Shown here piece after piece: positions 1 through 34,858 of a stretch of 34,858 nt of DNA; position 1 is the stretch's first letter; the number at the start of each line of letters is the position of its first letter. Under the pieces are notes generated by a model. That model was not told the DNA's origin, made no database searches, and saw nothing but the letters and a program-made list of their open reading frames with translations. A program made the position numbers and the translations under genes. The stretch lies in assembly GCA_913060565.1 (NCBI GenBank), contig CAJXRU010000032.1:1-34858 (forward strand), in the 5' to 3' direction. This DNA is from an uncultured Gammaproteobacteria bacterium (lineage in GTDB: Bacteria > Pseudomonadota > Gammaproteobacteria > Enterobacterales > Psychrobiaceae).

Positions 1-254
1 GTCCTTTTTGCGTCGGCTTTGCAGCGGAAACACAGGATGTTGAAACCTATGCTCGTGGAAAACTCGCTCGCAAAAAATTAGACATGATAGCCGCTAATAA
101 TGTCAGCATTGCAGGACAAGGATTTAACAGCGATGACAATGCACTCACATTATATTGGAAACAAGGTAAACTTGATTTACCGTTGGCCGATAAACAAGAA
201 TTAGCAAAACAACTAGTAGTTGAAATTATTAAGCATTACAATCATGCCCAATAA
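1..254 (+). CDS. coaBC: CoaBC C-terminal end (partial, 5' cut by window)
   Basis: An open frame enters from the left edge (first full codon at base 3) and stops with TAA at 252-254, giving 83 residues. It contains [27 protein letters not shown] and a basic C-terminal tail. These are hallmarks of the phosphopantothenoylcysteine synthetase half of the bifunctional CoaBC protein, which makes 4'-phosphopantothenoylcysteine and decarboxylates it in coenzyme A synthesis. The family is about 400 residues, so roughly the last fifth is here and the decarboxylase half lies outside. slmA follows after 55 bases on the same strand. In many gammaproteobacteria dut sits between these two genes; it is absent here. 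The identification is firm despite the short fragment. Confidence 0.9.
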
Positions 255-5528: not shown

Positions 5529-8500
5529 CTATGGCAATTCCATCACGTTATTTACCGTTGTTCTATCAATACGGTAACGATTAGGGTCAACCTGAACATA
5601 ACTTGGTTTTTCTTTTGAATACAATGAAATAGTACTTCTATCTCGATTAAAATGAACCTTGGTTAGCGTCAATACATTACTATTATCAACCGCAGGATAG
5701 CCACTATATAAACCCACTTCAATTTCTTCATCGATTAACTCATACTCTTCTTTATTGGTTTCTCGATTTAAGACCAGTTTACGCGTACTAACATCAACTT
5801 CAGTCACATAAAGCCCATCATCATGTTGAGCGACATGAGCGTCGTGAATTTCAAACTCATGAAATACAACACGTTTAAACAAATCATCAATAATGATTTT
5901 TTGCTCAGGCGTTGCGACACCATAAAATGCGTTGAGTAAATCTAGCGACGTTGGCTTATTTGGATAACCATGTGTTTGTAATAAACTTTTTAGTGCACTA
6001 TTTAACTTCGTTTCCCCCAACAAACCCAACAGGGCGTGCATCACCTGCTTGCCTTTTGAATAATAAATATGCGGTTCAAAACCAACGCTGTAGAGCGGAT
6101 TTTCGACACTCGAGTTATATGAACGCATCTGCAAGTAGCGGTCGATAGATAAATGTACCTCGACATTAGCGGCATATTGACCATAAAGTTTTCTCGTCAT
6201 GACCAATTCTGTGTACTTACATAATGTTTCAGTAAGCATTGCATAACCACCAATATAGTTAGGCTCTAAATACCCGCCCCAATACTGATGAGCAAACTCA
6301 TGAGACACGCCACGTAACAACGGGTTATGCTGCGCGCCTTCGTTGTTTAGGTTAAAGAATCGATTTTCAACCCCTAAATAAATCCCCGGCTGAGCACTAC
6401 CAAATGATTGATTACTTGAGAAATAAGGTAGTTCTGCCACCGTAAACTCGTCACCTTTATAAGGAATGTAATGTTGCTTAAAATAATCCATGGTATTGGT
6501 TAACGCATGATAAATCAGTTCATTATCTTTGTTATGCTCAGGAGAATGATAAATCTTTATATCAACACCATCATGGTGTTTTACCACTTCATCAAACTCT
6601 GCAGAAACATAAGCTAATTGTTGTTTCACTTTGTGTTTACTTTTGTAATGAAAATAATTACGGCCATTTTCAGTCCACGTTTTTTCTAAATGACCAACAG
6701 CAACAACATGTTGATTATCATTGGTAGAAACGACAGTTTCAAAATTAACCCAATCATCACTCACTTTCTGATCGGCTTGCGTTGGTGTCTGAAATAGCTC
6801 AAGAGGTAAGCCGCGCTTATCACGCTCCTCTTCATTGGACATCACCAATCGCTGATCAAAACCAAACTGAGGAATAACATCTTCTAGCTCAATATAAGAT
6901 CCATTTTCGGTAACATAATGCTCACCATCGAGCTCGACGAACGTACTGTGCGTGATGGCAATATCAAATATTAGCGATCGCGTTTCACCGGGCAGCATTG
7001 GTTTATTTAATTGATAAATATATTGTTTAAAGACATCGTCGTATTCAATAAGCGTCGCTTCGGCTAATTCAAGGCGTTGAGTTAACTTTCCTGAGCTGAC
7101 AAATGAAATAAGTAATTTATCAATATTGCTAGCCGATTGGTTTTCAAATGAATAACTACCGTTGGCGACAAAACGTTGTTCATTTGGGAAGATATCAACA
7201 GCAACATCAATGTCGGTGACTGTAGGTATATTGGCGTCTTTGAAATCCGCAAACTTTTGTTCATACTGCTCTTGGCGATCAAACATCTCTTCTTTTGACA
7301 AAAAGTCGTGCGCCATATTGGTTTGATAAAAAATATAACTGCCGCTTACCGCCATAGAACTCGCTGCTAACACCAAGGTCGCAATACTCGCTCTAGATAA
7401 CTTTTGGCTTACCGTGGAAGTGCCTCGTTTCCACATTTTTATCGTAAAAACAGAAAGTAAGACTGCAAAAGACATCCAATAAGCGTTGTACCAATTGAGC
7501 GCTTCAAGGTGATATAGCGATTGTGTCATGTCCGAGAAGATAAACTGCGGCTTATAGGCAAACGACACCAATGGGTGCTCAAAAAAGCCAATTTTTACAA
7601 CGATATTGACGACAAAAATGCCAAACCCTAATAATAACCCTAACGATTTGGTTGACGCGAATCGCTGTAAAAACAACGTTAATAACGTCACCATGGTAAT
7701 CGGCATACCTGCATAGTAATAGAGCGATAAATATAGCGTTGGTTGAATATCAAAAGACTGCTGAGATAACTGGAAAAGTATGGCAACAATAATAGCCGCC
7801 GTGATAAGCGTGAATCCTACGGCCAATACTGTCGTGAGCTTTGCAAAATAGAAGGTAAAATTGCGTGTAGGTGTTGTGTCGATTAATCCATTGATATTCA
7901 CATTACGCTCTGTCCAATACAGTTCTACAGCATAGAATATAGCCACCAGCATGCCGATATCTGACAATGGCTGTTGCAACAATTCGAGCATCAATGCAGT
8001 GAGCGGAAGGAATGGCTGGCCATTACTAATAGGACCATTAAACGTATTACTGACTAAAATTACACCACAAAATATAACGGTAATGATGAGTAAAACAATA
8101 AAGGTCAAGCCACGGGTAATACTCGCATACTCTAATTTTAATTTTGATAGCCATATTTTAAAGCTAAACGACTGAAAATCTGTATTAATTGTGAGAGCTT
8201 GATAAGGTTCAACAACAACTCCTTGAGGCGACTTTTTACGTTCAGCTTTGGCTTTTTTGGCGGGTGCAGGCTGTCTAAAGTTAAATCTGTAATAAGTTGC
8301 CACAAACAACGACACACTCACGGTTAACCACAAAATACGGTTTAGTAATAAATCGCCGCTTAGTGAGGGGATCACAATATTTTTCTGCTCTGCCGTCCAA
8401 TAAGCAGTTTGCTCCATATAGGCAATAAACCCATAAGGTTCTAACAGCGACGCAAAACCAGAACTATCATTAAGTAGCGGAGAGGAAGTAGCCATCATCG

Positions 8501-9071
8501 AAGAGTTGCCAAGTACAGATCCAATAATGTAAAGCACATATACAGCAATTCCAGACACATAAACCGCAATCATACTTTTACTAAACATAGCGGTTGCAAA
8601 GACGACTGAACAGGCAAATAACACCGCTGGTACGACAAAGATCCCATAGCTGATCAAATAATTGGTTACGCTAAAAGGACCCACTAATTCAGGTTCAAGC
8701 CTCAATAATGTCAGCATCATGACCAATACGCCAATCGCCATGAGCGATAGTGTTGCAAAAACTAATCCTAGATATCGACTTGTTAAGTAATGGAATTTAT
8801 CAACGGGTGTTGCGAAAATTAACGACTCCATTTTATATTGGCTATCACGTAATAAGGTCGACGATGCCAACACACACACCATGAAAATGATGTTAGGTAC
8901 AATGAACAGCATAGTCTGAGTGATAGCATACGATGAATTGGCAAACAGCAAGTGAGAACCACGTTGCCCAGTAATTACAAACGCCATCCATGAAATGAGC
9001 AGCGCTGCGACCCAAAAACCAATCTGTTTGAAATGAGCGGATAACTCAAATTGTGTGAGTTTATTTATCAT
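5529..9071 (-). CDS. ABC transporter permease fused to M1-family metallopeptidase
   Basis: This 1180-residue protein has two blocks of hydrophobic helices, roughly residues 15-260 and 320-580, each resembling an ABC-2-type permease half. They are followed by a large domain (about 600-1180) with M1 aminopeptidase signatures. GVEN (900-903) stands in for the GxMEN exopeptidase motif. HEFAH (924-928) and the glutamate in MLTE (948) form the zinc site. The related fused family spaces this glutamate one residue further than classical M1 enzymes. The start at 9071 (MINKLTQFE) has AAGGTGA about five bases upstream and overlaps the ATPase stop by 11 bases, implying translational coupling. The peptidase is probably on the far side of the membrane from the ATPase. 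The substrate is unknown; a peptide is a reasonable inference. Comparable fused proteins exist in other bacteria. Confidence 0.88.
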   Translation of the reverse strand: MINKLTQFELSAHFKQIGFWVAALLISWMAFVITGQRGSHLLFANSSYAITQTMLFIVPNIIFMVCVLASSTLLRDSQYKMESLIFATPVDKFHYLTSRYLGLVFATLSLMAIGVLVMMLTLLRLEPELVGPFSVTNYLISYGIFVVPAVLFACSVVFATAMFSKSMIAVYVSGIAVYVLYIIGSVLGNSSMMATSSPLLNDSSGFASLLEPYGFIAYMEQTAYWTAEQKNIVIPSLSGDLLLNRILWLTVSVSLFVATYYRFNFRQPAPAKKAKAERKKSPQGVVVEPYQALTINTDFQSFSFKIWLSKLKLEYASITRGLTFIVLLIITVIFCGVILVSNTFNGPISNGQPFLPLTALMLELLQQPLSDIGMLVAIFYAVELYWTERNVNINGLIDTTPTRNFTFYFAKLTTVLAVGFTLITAAIIVAILFQLSQQSFDIQPTLYLSLYYYAGMPITMVTLLTLFLQRFASTKSLGLLLGFGIFVVNIVVKIGFFEHPLVSFAYKPQFIFSDMTQSLYHLEALNWYNAYWMSFAVLLSVFTIKMWKRGTSTVSQKLSRASIATLVLAASSMAVSGSYIFYQTNMAHDFLSKEEMFDRQEQYEQKFADFKDANIPTVTDIDVAVDIFPNEQRFVANGSYSFENQSASNIDKLLISFVSSGKLTQRLELAEATLIEYDDVFKQYIYQLNKPMLPGETRSLIFDIAITHSTFVELDGEHYVTENGSYIELEDVIPQFGFDQRLVMSNEEERDKRGLPLELFQTPTQADQKVSDDWVNFETVVSTNDNQHVVAVGHLEKTWTENGRNYFHYKSKHKVKQQLAYVSAEFDEVVKHHDGVDIKIYHSPEHNKDNELIYHALTNTMDYFKQHYIPYKGDEFTVAELPYFSSNQSFGSAQPGIYLGVENRFFNLNNEGAQHNPLLRGVSHEFAHQYWGGYLEPNYIGGYAMLTETLCKYTELVMTRKLYGQYAANVEVHLSIDRYLQMRSYNSSVENPLYSVGFEPHIYYSKGKQVMHALLGLLGETKLNSALKSLLQTHGYPNKPTSLDLLNAFYGVATPEQKIIIDDLFKRVVFHEFEIHDAHVAQHDDGLYVTEVDVSTRKLVLNRETNKEEYELIDEEIEVGLYSGYPAVDNSNVLTLTKVHFNRDRSTISLYSKEKPSYVQVDPNRYRIDRTTVNNVMELP

Positions 9072-9951
9072 TGTCATCACCTTTATTAAGTTGATGTAAT
9101 GTTGAAAAATAAACATCTTCTAAATCCGGAGTCACTGGCTCAAATCCCATTTCAGGCTGAAATTCACTTTGCACAACAACCTGTGTTTTTCCAGTGATGA
9201 GCTGCTCAGAGATAACTTCAAATTTATCTCTATATTGAGAAACCTGCTCTTTCGCGATTTCTTTACGCCAAATAGTGCCATCAATTGCATTAATCAAGTC
9301 ACGAGGTTTACCTTGCAGACGCACATTGCCTTTAGCCAATATAGCCATGTTAGGACAGAGCTGGCTGACATCTTCAACAATATGCGTCGACAGAATGACG
9401 ACTACATTTTCCCCAATTTCACACAGTAAATTATGGAAACGATTTCGTTCATACGGATCAAGGCCAGCTGTTGGTTCATCAACAATCACTAACTTTGGAG
9501 AGCCCAGCAAGGCTTGTGCAATCCCAAATCGTTGGCGCATACCACCAGAAAAAGAACTGACATCTTTCTTACGGACATCATAAAGATTGGTTTGATGTAA
9601 CAACTGCTCAATTTGTCTCGACCGTGTCTTATGATCAGTCAAGCCTTTAAGTAGAGCCATGTGCTCAAGCAATTGATAGCAAGACACTTTAGGATAGACA
9701 CCAAACTCTTGCGGTAAGTAGCCTAAACAAGACCGTAAAATATTAGGGTTCTTAATAATATCTTTGTTTTCAAAGCTGATTTGCCCATGCGATGGTAGTT
9801 GCAGCGTTGCGATAGTGCGCATTAAACTAGATTTTCCAGCCCCGTTTGGGCCCAATAATCCAAACAATCCAGGCTCAATATCTAACGACACACCACGTAG
9901 TGCCTCAACGCCATTGTCGTAAGTTTTCGATAAATTTCTTATGTTTAACAT
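9061..9951 (-). CDS. ABC transporter ATP-binding protein partnering the M1 permease
   Basis: This 296-residue ATPase has all ABC motifs: Walker A GPNGAGKS (34-41), Q-loop glutamine (81), signature SFSGGMRQR (133-141), Walker B LVIVDEP (154-160) with the catalytic Glu, and H-loop STH (188-190). About 90 residues of C-terminal extension follow. The start is the ATG at 9951 (MLNIRNLSKTYDNG), with AGGA seven bases upstream; the frame stays open upstream but without an ABC-like sequence. It is the first gene of a two-gene operon with the permease-peptidase and is divergent from a LytS/LytTR pair. Because the permease carries both membrane halves, the complex could be two ATPases with one permease. 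The transported molecule is unknown. Confidence 0.93.
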   Translation of the reverse strand: MLNIRNLSKTYDNGVEALRGVSLDIEPGLFGLLGPNGAGKSSLMRTIATLQLPSHGQISFENKDIIKNPNILRSCLGYLPQEFGVYPKVSCYQLLEHMALLKGLTDHKTRSRQIEQLLHQTNLYDVRKKDVSSFSGGMRQRFGIAQALLGSPKLVIVDEPTAGLDPYERNRFHNLLCEIGENVVVILSTHIVEDVSQLCPNMAILAKGNVRLQGKPRDLINAIDGTIWRKEIAKEQVSQYRDKFEVISEQLITGKTQVVVQSEFQPEMGFEPVTPDLEDVYFSTLHQLNKGDDNDK

Positions 9952-10023
9952 GTCAATTCCTAATACTGGTTTCTCATACTGGGCTAGTTTACAATCGCAA
10001 TTAATAGATAGGTGAAACGAATG

Positions 10024-10053
10024 ACGAACGACAGTTAAACCTAGATGAACGAC
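10024..10053 (-). promoter_or_regulatory. Putative LytTR operator: two direct repeats with a 12-bp spacer
   Basis: Read on the minus strand, GTCGTTCAT (10053-10045) and GTCGTTCGT (10032-10024) are near-identical 9-mers separated by exactly 12 bp. Regulators with LytTR domains (AgrA/AlgR class) typically bind pairs of imperfect 9-bp direct repeats with a GTT core and about 12 bp between them. The pair lies 73-102 bases upstream of the ATPase start and just before the kinase gene. A LytTR regulator is encoded next door, which makes it the obvious candidate ligand. Confidence 0.6.
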
Positions 10054-10079
10054 CAATGATGTCAGATAAGGAGCACTTT

Positions 10080-10877
10080 TTGATAGCCCCAAGAACGCAA
10101 ATCAATATCGTAAAACTACTAATTGGTAGCTCTCTCTACGGCGCTTTTTTATATTGGCTCTACGTTAACAACCTCGCTGATTTACTCATTGTGTTCTTAA
10201 CGATGTCATTGATGATTCCAATCATATTTTTGATTAGAGATCGGTTTAAACAACAACAAATCATCGATAACCTTCACCAAGAAAGCTTAACTGCTGAGTT
10301 AAATTTACTTAAGAGCCAAATTAACCCACACTTCTTCTTTAATACGCTTAACAACCTTTACGGATTAGCTACTGAAAAATCCGATTTAACTCAAGAAGTT
10401 ATTTACAAGCTATCACAAATGATGCGTTTTACTATTTATGATGGTCGTAAAGATTCAGTATCGGTCGAAGATGAAATTAGCTACCTCAATAATTTCATTG
10501 AACTCAACCAAATTCGCCACAAAAACGCCATTGATATTGAATTTAATCAAAAAACTGAAGATAAAGAACAACGTATTCCCCCACTACTTTTTATCAACTT
10601 ATTAGAAAATGCATTTAAGCATGGTGTCGATACACAAACGGCTAATCAGTTTATCCGCTTTACCTTAAGCACCCAAAAAACGACTATAGCTTTCGAATTA
10701 ACCAATAATTATGATCAAGTAATACTAGATAGTAAAAAGTCAAAGCGTGGTACCGGTGGCGTAGGGATAGAAAACTTGCAACGCAGACTTCACTTGTTGT
10801 ATCCCGATAAGCATCAATTTACAGAACATGCAGAAAATGGCATCTATCACACAAAAGTTGTCATCGACTTAACCTAG
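10080..10877 (+). CDS. LytS-type sensor histidine kinase without an extracytoplasmic sensor
   Basis: The protein has two closely spaced transmembrane helices (about 11-29 and 34-52), then a His_kinase domain (PF06580 type) with the phospho-acceptor His84 in KSQINPHFFFNTLNN. A HATPase domain follows with N-box LLENAFKHG (N177) and G-box GTGGVGIEN. It should phosphorylate the response regulator encoded 8 bases downstream. I prefer the TTG at 10080 (265 residues) because a full AAGGAG lies six bases upstream; ATGs at 10056 and 10059 are in frame but have no good ribosome binding site. Only about four residues separate the two membrane helices, so it has almost no external sensor and may read its signal through the membrane or through a partner. 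The adjacent divergent ABC system is the likely partner by inference. Confidence 0.9.
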   Translation: MIAPRTQINIVKLLIGSSLYGAFLYWLYVNNLADLLIVFLTMSLMIPIIFLIRDRFKQQQIIDNLHQESLTAELNLLKSQINPHFFFNTLNNLYGLATEKSDLTQEVIYKLSQMMRFTIYDGRKDSVSVEDEISYLNNFIELNQIRHKNAIDIEFNQKTEDKEQRIPPLLFINLLENAFKHGVDTQTANQFIRFTLSTQKTTIAFELTNNYDQVILDSKKSKRGTGGVGIENLQRRLHLLYPDKHQFTEHAENGIYHTKVVIDLT

Positions 10878-10885
10878 GAATTACT

Positions 10886-11602
10886 ATGCCACTCAATTTT
10901 GCCATTATTGACGACGAGCCTTTGGCCCATTCCCTCATCGAGAATTTCGCCAATAAATTGGAGCATCTAACGCTTGTGGGCAATTGCCATAACGCTGAAC
11001 AAGCAAAATCACTCCTTAGTACGCAGCGAGTTGATTTTATTTTTCTCGATATTCAAATGCCGCAAATCACTGGCTTTGAATTTTTACGCGGCTTAAATAA
11101 TCCGCCAAAAATCATTATCGTTTCTGCCCATAAAGAATACGCCCTAGAAAGTTATGACTATGGCATTAGCGACTATTTACTCAAACCTTTTAATTTTGAG
11201 CGATTTGAAAAAGCGGTACAAAAAGTTACAGCCTCATTAACAACCCAACGAACAGCAGTCACTAAACACAACGAATCTACGCCACATATTTTCATTAAAG
11301 ATGATAAGAAGCATCACAAGGTGCCGTTGAGCGATATTACCTACATCAAAGCCAATGGTAATTTTACGTCAGTGCACCTTCATAACAACCATATCATTAG
11401 CCAAATGAAAATTTCAGATTTTGAAAAGTTGTTACCTGCTGAGATTTTTTGCCGTGTACACCGTTCTTATATAGTTGCTCTCAGTGCTGTTACATTAATA
11501 ACAGCTAATGAACTAACTCTCAGGGATGCGGTCATCCCTGTAGGACGAGTTTATAAATCTCATTTAAAAATGTTATTAGCCAATGACAAAACACATCAGT
11601 AA
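10886..11602 (+). CDS. LytTR-family response regulator
   Basis: This 238-residue protein is a receiver plus LytTR DNA-binding domain. The receiver has the acidic pair IIDDEP (8-12), the phospho-acceptor Asp55 in FIFLDIQMP and Lys100 in YLLKPF. The C-terminal LytTR domain (about 141-238) includes the typical VPLSDITYIKANGNFTSVHL and FCRVHRSYIVAL blocks. It is co-transcribed with the upstream kinase (8-base gap). Regulators of this kind bind tandem 9-bp repeats, and such a pair lies upstream of the divergent ABC operon at 10024-10053. It probably controls that operon, its own operon, or both; this link is inference from position. Confidence 0.93.
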   Translation: MPLNFAIIDDEPLAHSLIENFANKLEHLTLVGNCHNAEQAKSLLSTQRVDFIFLDIQMPQITGFEFLRGLNNPPKIIIVSAHKEYALESYDYGISDYLLKPFNFERFEKAVQKVTASLTTQRTAVTKHNESTPHIFIKDDKKHHKVPLSDITYIKANGNFTSVHLHNNHIISQMKISDFEKLLPAEIFCRVHRSYIVALSAVTLITANELTLRDAVIPVGRVYKSHLKMLLANDKTHQ

Positions 11603-29640: not shown

Positions 29641-30597
29641 TCACTCGCCAATTGATAGCGCAGAATTAAATTGACGCACCGTAAAATCTGCAGAGAATTG
29701 TTGATAAACACCTTGCCATTGCGCCAAGGGTTTATTGGATAGTATGCAAACCCGTTGATTATCTTTTAATAAACGCTCTACCTGGCTTAATTTATCTGAC
29801 TGATTTAATTTAGAAATATTAGCATCTCTTCGAATCAGCTCGACAACTTGATTGTCGATATTTTCGTCAACTAATGCAATATCAGATTGCTGCATATGAC
29901 GCAGCGCAGCCAGTGATAACATCTGTGCATCTGACGTTGTTTGGATCAAATAAAGTTCACCGTCAACACCATCGATTTGTTGTTCTTTATTCAACAAACG
30001 GTCGAATAAACCGCTTAATTTTGAAACGTCATCACTGTCACCTGAAGAAAAGAAACGCTCCCAAAAACGACGTCGTTGATTTCCATCACTAAAGCTATCT
30101 TTTACTATTTGGCGCTTACTACCAGAGAAGCTTGCAACCTTGCCCAATACCAAAGGAATGATACTTTCTAATCGCTCACGCCAATAACGCACTAATACTG
30201 GTGCCGCACCCTCGCTACTTATTGCGAAAACCATTGGAGAGCGGTCGATAATAGATGGGGTAATGAAATGACATAGCGCTTGTGAATCGACAACGTTAGC
30301 AAAAACATTACGTGCTTTGGCTTGTGCACTAATTTGCGCATTCAGTTCATTATTTGCAGTGGCAACAAAAACTAACTGACGGTTATCTAACATGGACTCA
30401 TGATAAAGCCCGTTAATATGCTCAACACGACCAATATTCACAAACCCTTGAATTTCAGATGATAATTCAGGAGAAACTACAGTCACATTGGCAGCGCTTT
30501 TAAGCAACAGCTCAATTTTTCGGGTAGCGACTTCGCCGCCGCCAACCACTAAAACATTAAGCTGCTGTGTATCGACGAAAATCGGAAAATACTGCAT
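29641..30597 (-). CDS. Precorrin-2 dehydrogenase/ferrochelatase with a decayed methyltransferase remnant
   Basis: This 318-residue protein corresponds to the N-terminal (CysG-B/Met8) half of siroheme synthase. It oxidises precorrin-2 to sirohydrochlorin and inserts iron. The NAD-binding VLVVGGGEVATRKIELL (15-32), catalytic Asp104 in NVVDSQ, the FITPSII segment and Ser128 in FAISSEG are all present. From residue 213 to about 292 the sequence (GELYLIQTTSDAQMLSLAAL, then ALVDENIDNQVVELIRRDA) still tracks the first part of the CysG methyltransferase domain, but the SAM-binding GAGPGDPELLT is lost. The intact methyltransferase is encoded by the gene upstream, which it overlaps by 41 bases. The start MQYFPIFVD fits the family. 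Siroheme is the cofactor of sulfite and nitrite reductases. Confidence 0.9.
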   Translation of the reverse strand: MQYFPIFVDTQQLNVLVVGGGEVATRKIELLLKSAANVTVVSPELSSEIQGFVNIGRVEHINGLYHESMLDNRQLVFVATANNELNAQISAQAKARNVFANVVDSQALCHFITPSIIDRSPMVFAISSEGAAPVLVRYWRERLESIIPLVLGKVASFSGSKRQIVKDSFSDGNQRRRFWERFFSSGDSDDVSKLSGLFDRLLNKEQQIDGVDGELYLIQTTSDAQMLSLAALRHMQQSDIALVDENIDNQVVELIRRDANISKLNQSDKLSQVERLLKDNQRVCILSNKPLAQWQGVYQQFSADFTVRQFNSALSIGE

Positions 30598-31408
30598 CTT
30601 CAGACTCTATGGCTTGAAAATAGCCATTATTGTTTAGGTTTTGTTCTTCGAACTGATTGACCACATGCCCAATAATAATTAGTGAGGGTGGTTTTATATC
30701 GTGTTGTTTAACTAATTCAGGTAATGAAGTTAAGGTGCCGCGAATTGTTTTTTGTTCTGGGCGCGTCCCCTTCTCAATGATTGCTGCTGGTGTATCAGGA
30801 CTACGTCCATGTGCAATAAGCTGCTGCTTGATTGTTTCTAATGTATTAATTCCCATATAAAAAACAATTGTTTGCGAATCAACACTCAGGGCTGGCCAGG
30901 GTAAATCCAAACGCCCTTCGGTCTGCAAATGCCCCGTAATAAAACTACAGCCCTGTGCAACACCGCGATGAGTTAGCGGAATGCCAGCATAAGCAGCACA
31001 TGATGATGCTGCCGTCATTCCCGGCGCAACATGACAACTTACTCCTTCAGCTAGTAAATGAAGTGCTTCTTCGCCGCCACGGCCAAATATAAAGGGATCG
31101 CCACCTTTAAGACGTAAAACACGCTTACCTAGTTTGGCTTGCTCTGCGAGTAATTCGTTAATTTTATCCTGAGTTAAGCGATGATCCGCCTGTTTTTTAC
31201 CAACATAAATTAATTCACAATCGTCACTGAGTAGCGACATGATTTCGGGACTCACTAAACGGTCATAAACAGCAACATCAGCTTGCTCAATAAAGCGTAA
31301 CGCTTTAATAGTTAACAACTCTGGATCACCAGGCCCCGCCCCAACCAAAGCGACTTCACCTTTGGCGAATACGCTTTTACTTGCTATTTGTTGAATTAAT
31401 TTACTCAT
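30557..31408 (-). CDS. cobA: Uroporphyrinogen-III C-methyltransferase (SUMT)
   Basis: This 283-residue SAM-dependent enzyme methylates uroporphyrinogen III at C2 and C7 to precorrin-2, the first step to siroheme. Motifs are intact: EVALVGAGPGDPELLT (18-33), VYDRLVSPEIM, RLKGGDPFIFGRGGEE, VAPGMTAASSCAAYAGIPLTHRGVA and VFYMGINTLE. It corresponds to the C-terminal (CysG-A) half of fused siroheme synthase, here a separate gene. Its 3' end overlaps the dehydrogenase gene by 41 bases, so both enzymes are made together. About 150 bases separate it from smg upstream, including the smg terminator. Confidence 0.94.
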   Translation of the reverse strand: MSKLIQQIASKSVFAKGEVALVGAGPGDPELLTIKALRFIEQADVAVYDRLVSPEIMSLLSDDCELIYVGKKQADHRLTQDKINELLAEQAKLGKRVLRLKGGDPFIFGRGGEEALHLLAEGVSCHVAPGMTAASSCAAYAGIPLTHRGVAQGCSFITGHLQTEGRLDLPWPALSVDSQTIVFYMGINTLETIKQQLIAHGRSPDTPAAIIEKGTRPEQKTIRGTLTSLPELVKQHDIKPPSLIIIGHVVNQFEEQNLNNNGYFQAIESEDAVFSDFRRYTAA

Positions 31409-34470: not shown

Positions 34471-34809
34471 ATGGCCATTCTTACAGTATTACAATTTCCA
34501 GACAAAAGATTACGCACGGTTGCAGAGCCTGTTGCAGCAGTTACTAGCGAGACACAAAAAATTATCGATGACATGCTAGAGACTATGTACGATGAAAAAG
34601 GCGTTGGCCTAGCGGCTACTCAAGTTGATATTCACCAACGCATTGTTGTCATGGACTGCTCAGAAGATCAGGACACACCGATCATTATGGTTAACCCTGA
34701 AATCATCAAGCGTGAAGGTTCAATGATGAACGAAGAAGGTTGTTTATCTGTACCAGGTATTTACGCAAGTGTTGAGCGAGCTGAAGCTGTGACAGTAAAA
34801 GCGCTAGAC
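34471..34809 (+). CDS. def: Peptide deformylase (partial; 3' end replaced by adapter)
   Basis: The first 113 residues match peptide deformylase, which removes the formyl group from the N-terminal Met of new proteins. Start [21 protein letters not shown], motif I GVGLAATQ and motif [11 protein letters not shown] (metal-binding Cys) are present. Motif III HEMDH should follow but is missing because genomic sequence stops at 34809. The frame reads on into adapter as LSLIHI and stops at 34830, which is an artefact. The full enzyme is about 170 residues. In related genomes fmt and rsmB usually follow. Confidence 0.95.
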
Positions 34810-34858
34810 CTGTCTCTTATACACATCTGACGCTGCCGACGAAGAGGATAGTGTAGAT
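34810..34858 (+). other. Nextera/Illumina adapter contamination
   Basis: CTGTCTCTTATACACATCT (34810-34828) is the Tn5 mosaic end used in Nextera libraries. It is followed by GACGCTGCCGACGA (34829-34842), then an 8-base index AGAGGATA (34843-34850) and GTGTAGAT (34851-34858), the start of the P5 primer complement. None of these 49 bases belongs to the organism. Confidence 0.98.

Follow-up and report, generated by a model that had tools for sequence, protein, structure and literature searches.

The final 49 bases of the 34,858-base contig C32 (positions 34,810–34,858) are synthetic DNA from a library preparation kit, and thus an assembly artefact and not a biological sequence. We give a probability of about 0.99 to the reading that they are untrimmed Nextera adapter from a library fragmented with Tn5 transposase. 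The observations behind this reading are an exact match to the adapter, the recurrence of one index pair across the assembly, a transposase target motif in the pooled junctions, a missing stretch of the genes def and fmt, and a neighbouring contig, C145, that is capped with adapter as well. The window analysed here is the whole of contig C32, and the assembly to which it belongs consists of 215 contigs and 4,354,493 bases.

All 49 positions agree with the reverse complement of P5, TATCCTCT and the Nextera Read 1/mosaic end in succession, read from its first base, where the P5 and Read 1 letters are those that we take to be the adapter's. Outward from 34,810 the order is mosaic end (ME), Read 1 tail, index and part of P5. 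When up to three mismatches were allowed, the ME was found as a single copy in the window and in none of 100 shuffles. The features at this contig end are as follows.

34471..34809, + strand: def (peptide deformylase, Pfam PF01327), first 113 codons, cut by the contig end
34801..34809, + strand: last nine genomic bases, GCGCTAGAC, transposase cut site, agreeing with 6 of 7 specified motif positions
34810..34828, + strand: 19-base Tn5 mosaic end (ME), synthetic, exact match
34810..34830, + strand: false C-terminus LSLIHI plus stop, translated adapter, where G007 has RDGK... and G002 has RDGE...
34829..34842, + strand: Nextera Read 1 (i5 side) adapter tail, reverse complement, exact match
34843..34850, + strand: i5 sample index AGAGGATA, reverse complement of TATCCTCT (503), as listed in the index table of PMC4712552
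34851..34858, + strand: P5 reverse complement, first eight bases, GTGTAGAT, exact match

The ME letters are the same as those printed in PMC3046479, and the 33-base Read 1/ME word is the same as that in the trimming list of PMC6460022. The Illumina index table of PMC4712552 gives TATCCTCT as 503 and CATGCCTA as 706. A preliminary description of this DNA had recognized an untrimmed Nextera adapter at 34,810–34,858 and had called its index i5 503. The first claim is exact to the base, and the second agrees with the same table, AGAGGATA being the reverse complement of TATCCTCT. We advise trimming of the 49 bases.

The reading frame of def (34,471–34,830) runs into the adapter and ends there with LSLIHI and a stop. 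That this C-terminus is false, as had also been proposed, is upheld by the def proteins of G007 and G002, which continue with different residues from 34,810 on; at the nucleotide level, both genomes carry bases unrelated to the 49 bases where these would have to run into genuine def sequence. Full-length def measures 168 amino acids in G007, where it continues RDGKEFEFD... for 55 more residues, and 170 amino acids in G002. The match to PF01327 here extends over profile positions 2–116 of 156, so that a complete domain including the C-terminal HExxH region is absent, and the HELDH stretch of the G007 protein belongs to the portion for which this assembly gave no match. Residues 1–113 used as query yielded matches in 20 of 20 genomes, including the genome of origin, with 97% identity in G007 and 94% in G006. 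An 83-residue query from the G007 def was matched whole in G007 and G006; here, only its first 29 residues were matched, on C32. The 55-residue remainder as a lone query, run without a positive control, gave no match in the genome of origin. The def gene of this contig is a cut-off gene and not a variant, and its product is to be treated as ending after residue 113.

The gene that follows def is fmt, which is matched on C145 from query residue 26 and base 46. The first 49 bases of this contig are Read 2/i7 adapter, and fmt comes directly after; the first one or two matched residues are therefore adapter. The distance from cut site to cut site is 260 bp in four relatives of the same genus (G007, G006, G001 and G002), as measured by the best ungapped placement of 60-base flanks. 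A gap of about 260 bp, capped by the i5 adapter on its left and by the i7 adapter on its right, thus cuts both def and fmt.

On this reading, the genome was fragmented by Tn5 transposase loaded with mosaic-end adapters, and one fragment end fell at 34,809, within def. The sequencer would then have read past the fragment into the mosaic end, the Read 1 tail, the i5 503 index and P5, the insert probably being shorter than the read. The assembler probably stopped and kept the read-through as a contig end because no assembled sequence existed over the next ∼260 bp, for which a lack of coverage appears the probable reason. C145, on the far side, begins likewise, with the i7 adapter.

A related explanation accepts the adapter as real and makes it the cause of the break, such that reads spanning the gap exist and untrimmed adapter blocked the joining of contigs. 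Its sole difference from the explanation preferred here is the reason why the contig stops. Adapter ends can hamper contig merging, and trimming followed by reassembly merged some contigs in the assemblies discussed in PMC11536531. However, the capped ends of C32 and C145 do not overlap and correspond to sites 260 bp apart in relatives, and the remainder of def was not found in the deposited contigs (the smallest has 2,178 bases; shorter ones would escape). We regard a break caused by the adapter as unlikely.

The adapter is distributed across the assembly. The exact 19-base ME occurs in 215 copies, divided between the two strands as 106 and 109, and the same pattern read backwards has no copies in this genome. 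Each of the 100 ME copies listed, among the 215, lies no more than 53 bases from a contig end and points outward. The Read 1 33-mer is present 65 times and the 41-mer whose last bases are the index AGAGGATA 50 times, and on the i7 side the Read 2 34-mer is present 105 times and the 42-mer with the i7 index TAGGCATG 89 times.

A total of 142 contig ends were read (left ends of C1–C100, C145 and C196–C215; right ends of C1–C20 and C32). Ten left ends (C206–C215) were masked and were dropped from the counts, leaving 132 readable ends. Adapter stretches of 19 or more bases (range 20–53) are present at 70 of these, a single end carries 13 adapter bases, and 61 are without adapter. The right end of C32 and the left end of C145 had been chosen for carrying adapter, and with both set aside the proportion is 68 of 130; for the left ends of C1–C100 it is 52 of 100. 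Adapter tail lengths cluster at 47–53 bases, and a search of these lengths for the word size of the assembler met no sharp limit in that range. Because 61 of the 132 ends are adapter-free, an adapter cause is not visible at every break, and the adapter-free ends may in part be repeat ends.

Nearly all tails (68 of 70) match, without error, the start of either a single i5 adapter (503) or a single i7 adapter (706), and the two inexact ones show one base change (C73) and one missing base (C15). A single index pair over 68 of 70 tails is consistent with the origin of the tails in one library.

The genomic bases that adjoin the adapters carry a further mark of the transposase. The motif GTNYWRNAC is given in the kit comparison of PMC8224930 as the target of Nextera-type kits. 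The nine genomic bases that precede the adapter were scored at the seven specified motif positions for 73 distinct junctions, with the window serving as background; the end that carries 13 adapter bases was kept out of both the junction group and the adapter-free group. The junctions have a mean score of 3.75 of 7 versus 2.59 for the background, a value reached in none of 20,000 resamplings. Moving the register by 1–12 bases into the genome lowers the mean to 2.18–2.92, and the 61 adapter-free ends have a mean of 2.84, which was reached in 1,203 of 20,000 resamplings. The GCGCTAGAC junction of C32 scores 6, a score equalled or exceeded by 0.7% of the 9-mers in the window, and the C145 junction by itself scores 3 of 7. 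Taken together, the junctions carry the Nextera target motif at the exact junction register, indicating that they are tagmentation cuts.

It is highly improbable that the contig ends in a real Tn5 or IS50 element end, or in a laboratory Tn5-based transposon, inserted into def. The natural outside end, in the letters that we take it to have, differs from the synthetic ME found here by three mismatches, and the ME is followed by Illumina Read 1, index and P5 sequence instead of transposon DNA. On these two grounds a natural Tn5/IS50 end was rejected. A further argument against an insertion is that the ME recurs at many contig ends, with two kinds of tail and a single index pair, although the presence of the Tn5 target motif at the junctions and the descent of the mosaic end from Tn5 ends, as outlined in PMC3046479, would agree with one. 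Even less probable is a native origin of the 49 bases as the genuine terminus of a divergent def. In favour of such an origin, this frame is open until its stop and is listed as a complete ORF. The copies of the same bases at many unrelated contig ends in effect refute it, and it is further opposed by the full-length def of G007 and G006, whose first 113 residues are 97% and 94% identical, by the jump in motif score exactly at the adapter junction and by the lack of any copy of the 19-base ME in 57 other genomes of the order, eight of them from the same genus.

Untrimmed Nextera adapter, which accounts for the end of this contig, is also found in other public sequences. The exact 33-mer is present in at least 118 stretches of the genome_contigs collection and at least 120 of the viral_contigs collection. 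Among the matches listed, the copy lies within 60 bases of the locus end in 112 of 118 and 116 of 120 loci, respectively. Where at least 16 bases follow the copy, eight bases and then GTGTAGAT come next in 31 of 36 genome_contigs and 48 of 50 viral_contigs cases, and these eight-base words belong to indices 501–508 in 23 of the 31 and 41 of the 48, again among the matches listed. The eight-base slot varies between public contigs and its flanks are constant; the slot behaves as an index.

Matches of at least 28 bases occur in 28 of 50,697 phage records and 8 of 72,556 plasmid records. Coverage of the 49 bases reaches 80% or more in five of these phage records and one of these plasmid records. 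The same threshold applied to the 49-mer in complete genomes of E. coli gave no match in 20,395. When the literature was searched for LSLIHI and three further adapter peptides, one paper emerged, the relevant portion of which concerns a Tn5 insertion made on purpose in CLN3 in the laboratory; LSLIHI in that construct is likewise synthetic. The wider statement of the preliminary description, that database proteins with this ending are artefacts, is upheld here for the def of this contig.

Several individual records carry the adapter far from an end. In the phage record LR595870.1, the Nextera 33-mer (1297–1329) is situated more than 1 kb from the nearer end of the record, within a gene that bears the annotation phage terminase ATPase subunit, and here the adapter appears to have been built into a deposited protein-coding gene. 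A viral contig of 4,734 bases (L150) has the 33-mer at 2154–2186, more than 2 kb from both ends, possibly reflecting a chimeric join through the adapter. Four deposited Klebsiella plasmid records (22–304 kb) contain exact adapter matches of 33 or 34 bases that lie thousands of bases inside.

Adapter at contig ends is a known assembly error, and the present case is its ordinary Nextera counterpart. Moeller et al. 2024 (PMC11536531) describe contamination of contig ends by Illumina adapters in the MGnify microbial genome databases, the contaminated assemblies they report including both isolates and metagenome-assembled genomes. Features in common with their account are adapter at contig ends, its reverse complement at contig starts, and many occurrences per assembly. 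As described there, however, their screen used a TruSeq universal 12-mer, and the main text of that paper does not contain the word Nextera, whereas here the ME of Nextera occurs together with i5 and i7 indices. The 19-base ME (as presented in PMC3046479) and the Tn5 target preference at fragment ends (as reported in the comparison of PMC8224930) are shared with Nextera tagmentation libraries. In those sources they are properties of a library, and here they have been left in a deposited assembly.

The finding has no bearing on biology and matters for data hygiene. A frame that runs into adapter acquires a false end, and def and fmt look shortened here though they are whole in relatives. The presence of the same adapter in public genome and viral contigs, as well as in certain phage and plasmid records, is a reason to distrust protein ends at contig ends. 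There is perhaps an even chance that adapter-capped ends preserve a record of the library itself, namely its index pair, its tagmentation sites and the distinction between breaks at coverage gaps and breaks at repeats. If so, capped ends could be used to trace the origin of a sample and to sort the breaks in public draft assemblies by cause.

The left end of the window (1–254) lies inside a DFP/CoaBC gene, in the C-terminal part that corresponds to PF04127. This end is without adapter, and the break there thus has another or less visible cause. Among the adapter-free contig ends of the assembly, possible repeat ends are the right end of C8, which by eye reads as 16S rRNA, and the left ends of C21 and C203, which by eye read as tRNA genes.

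Within the window, translation of a 1195-amino-acid frame at 5529–9116 yields a product that, by eye, resembles a fusion of an ABC-2 type permease with an M1-type aminopeptidase. This frame adjoins an ABC ATPase (9061–10092) and a LytTR-type sensor/regulator pair (10056–11602), also assigned by eye. The siroheme genes at 29641–31408 appear, on similar inspection, as two overlapping frames, one Met8-like and one uroporphyrinogen methyltransferase-like, and not as one fused cysG.
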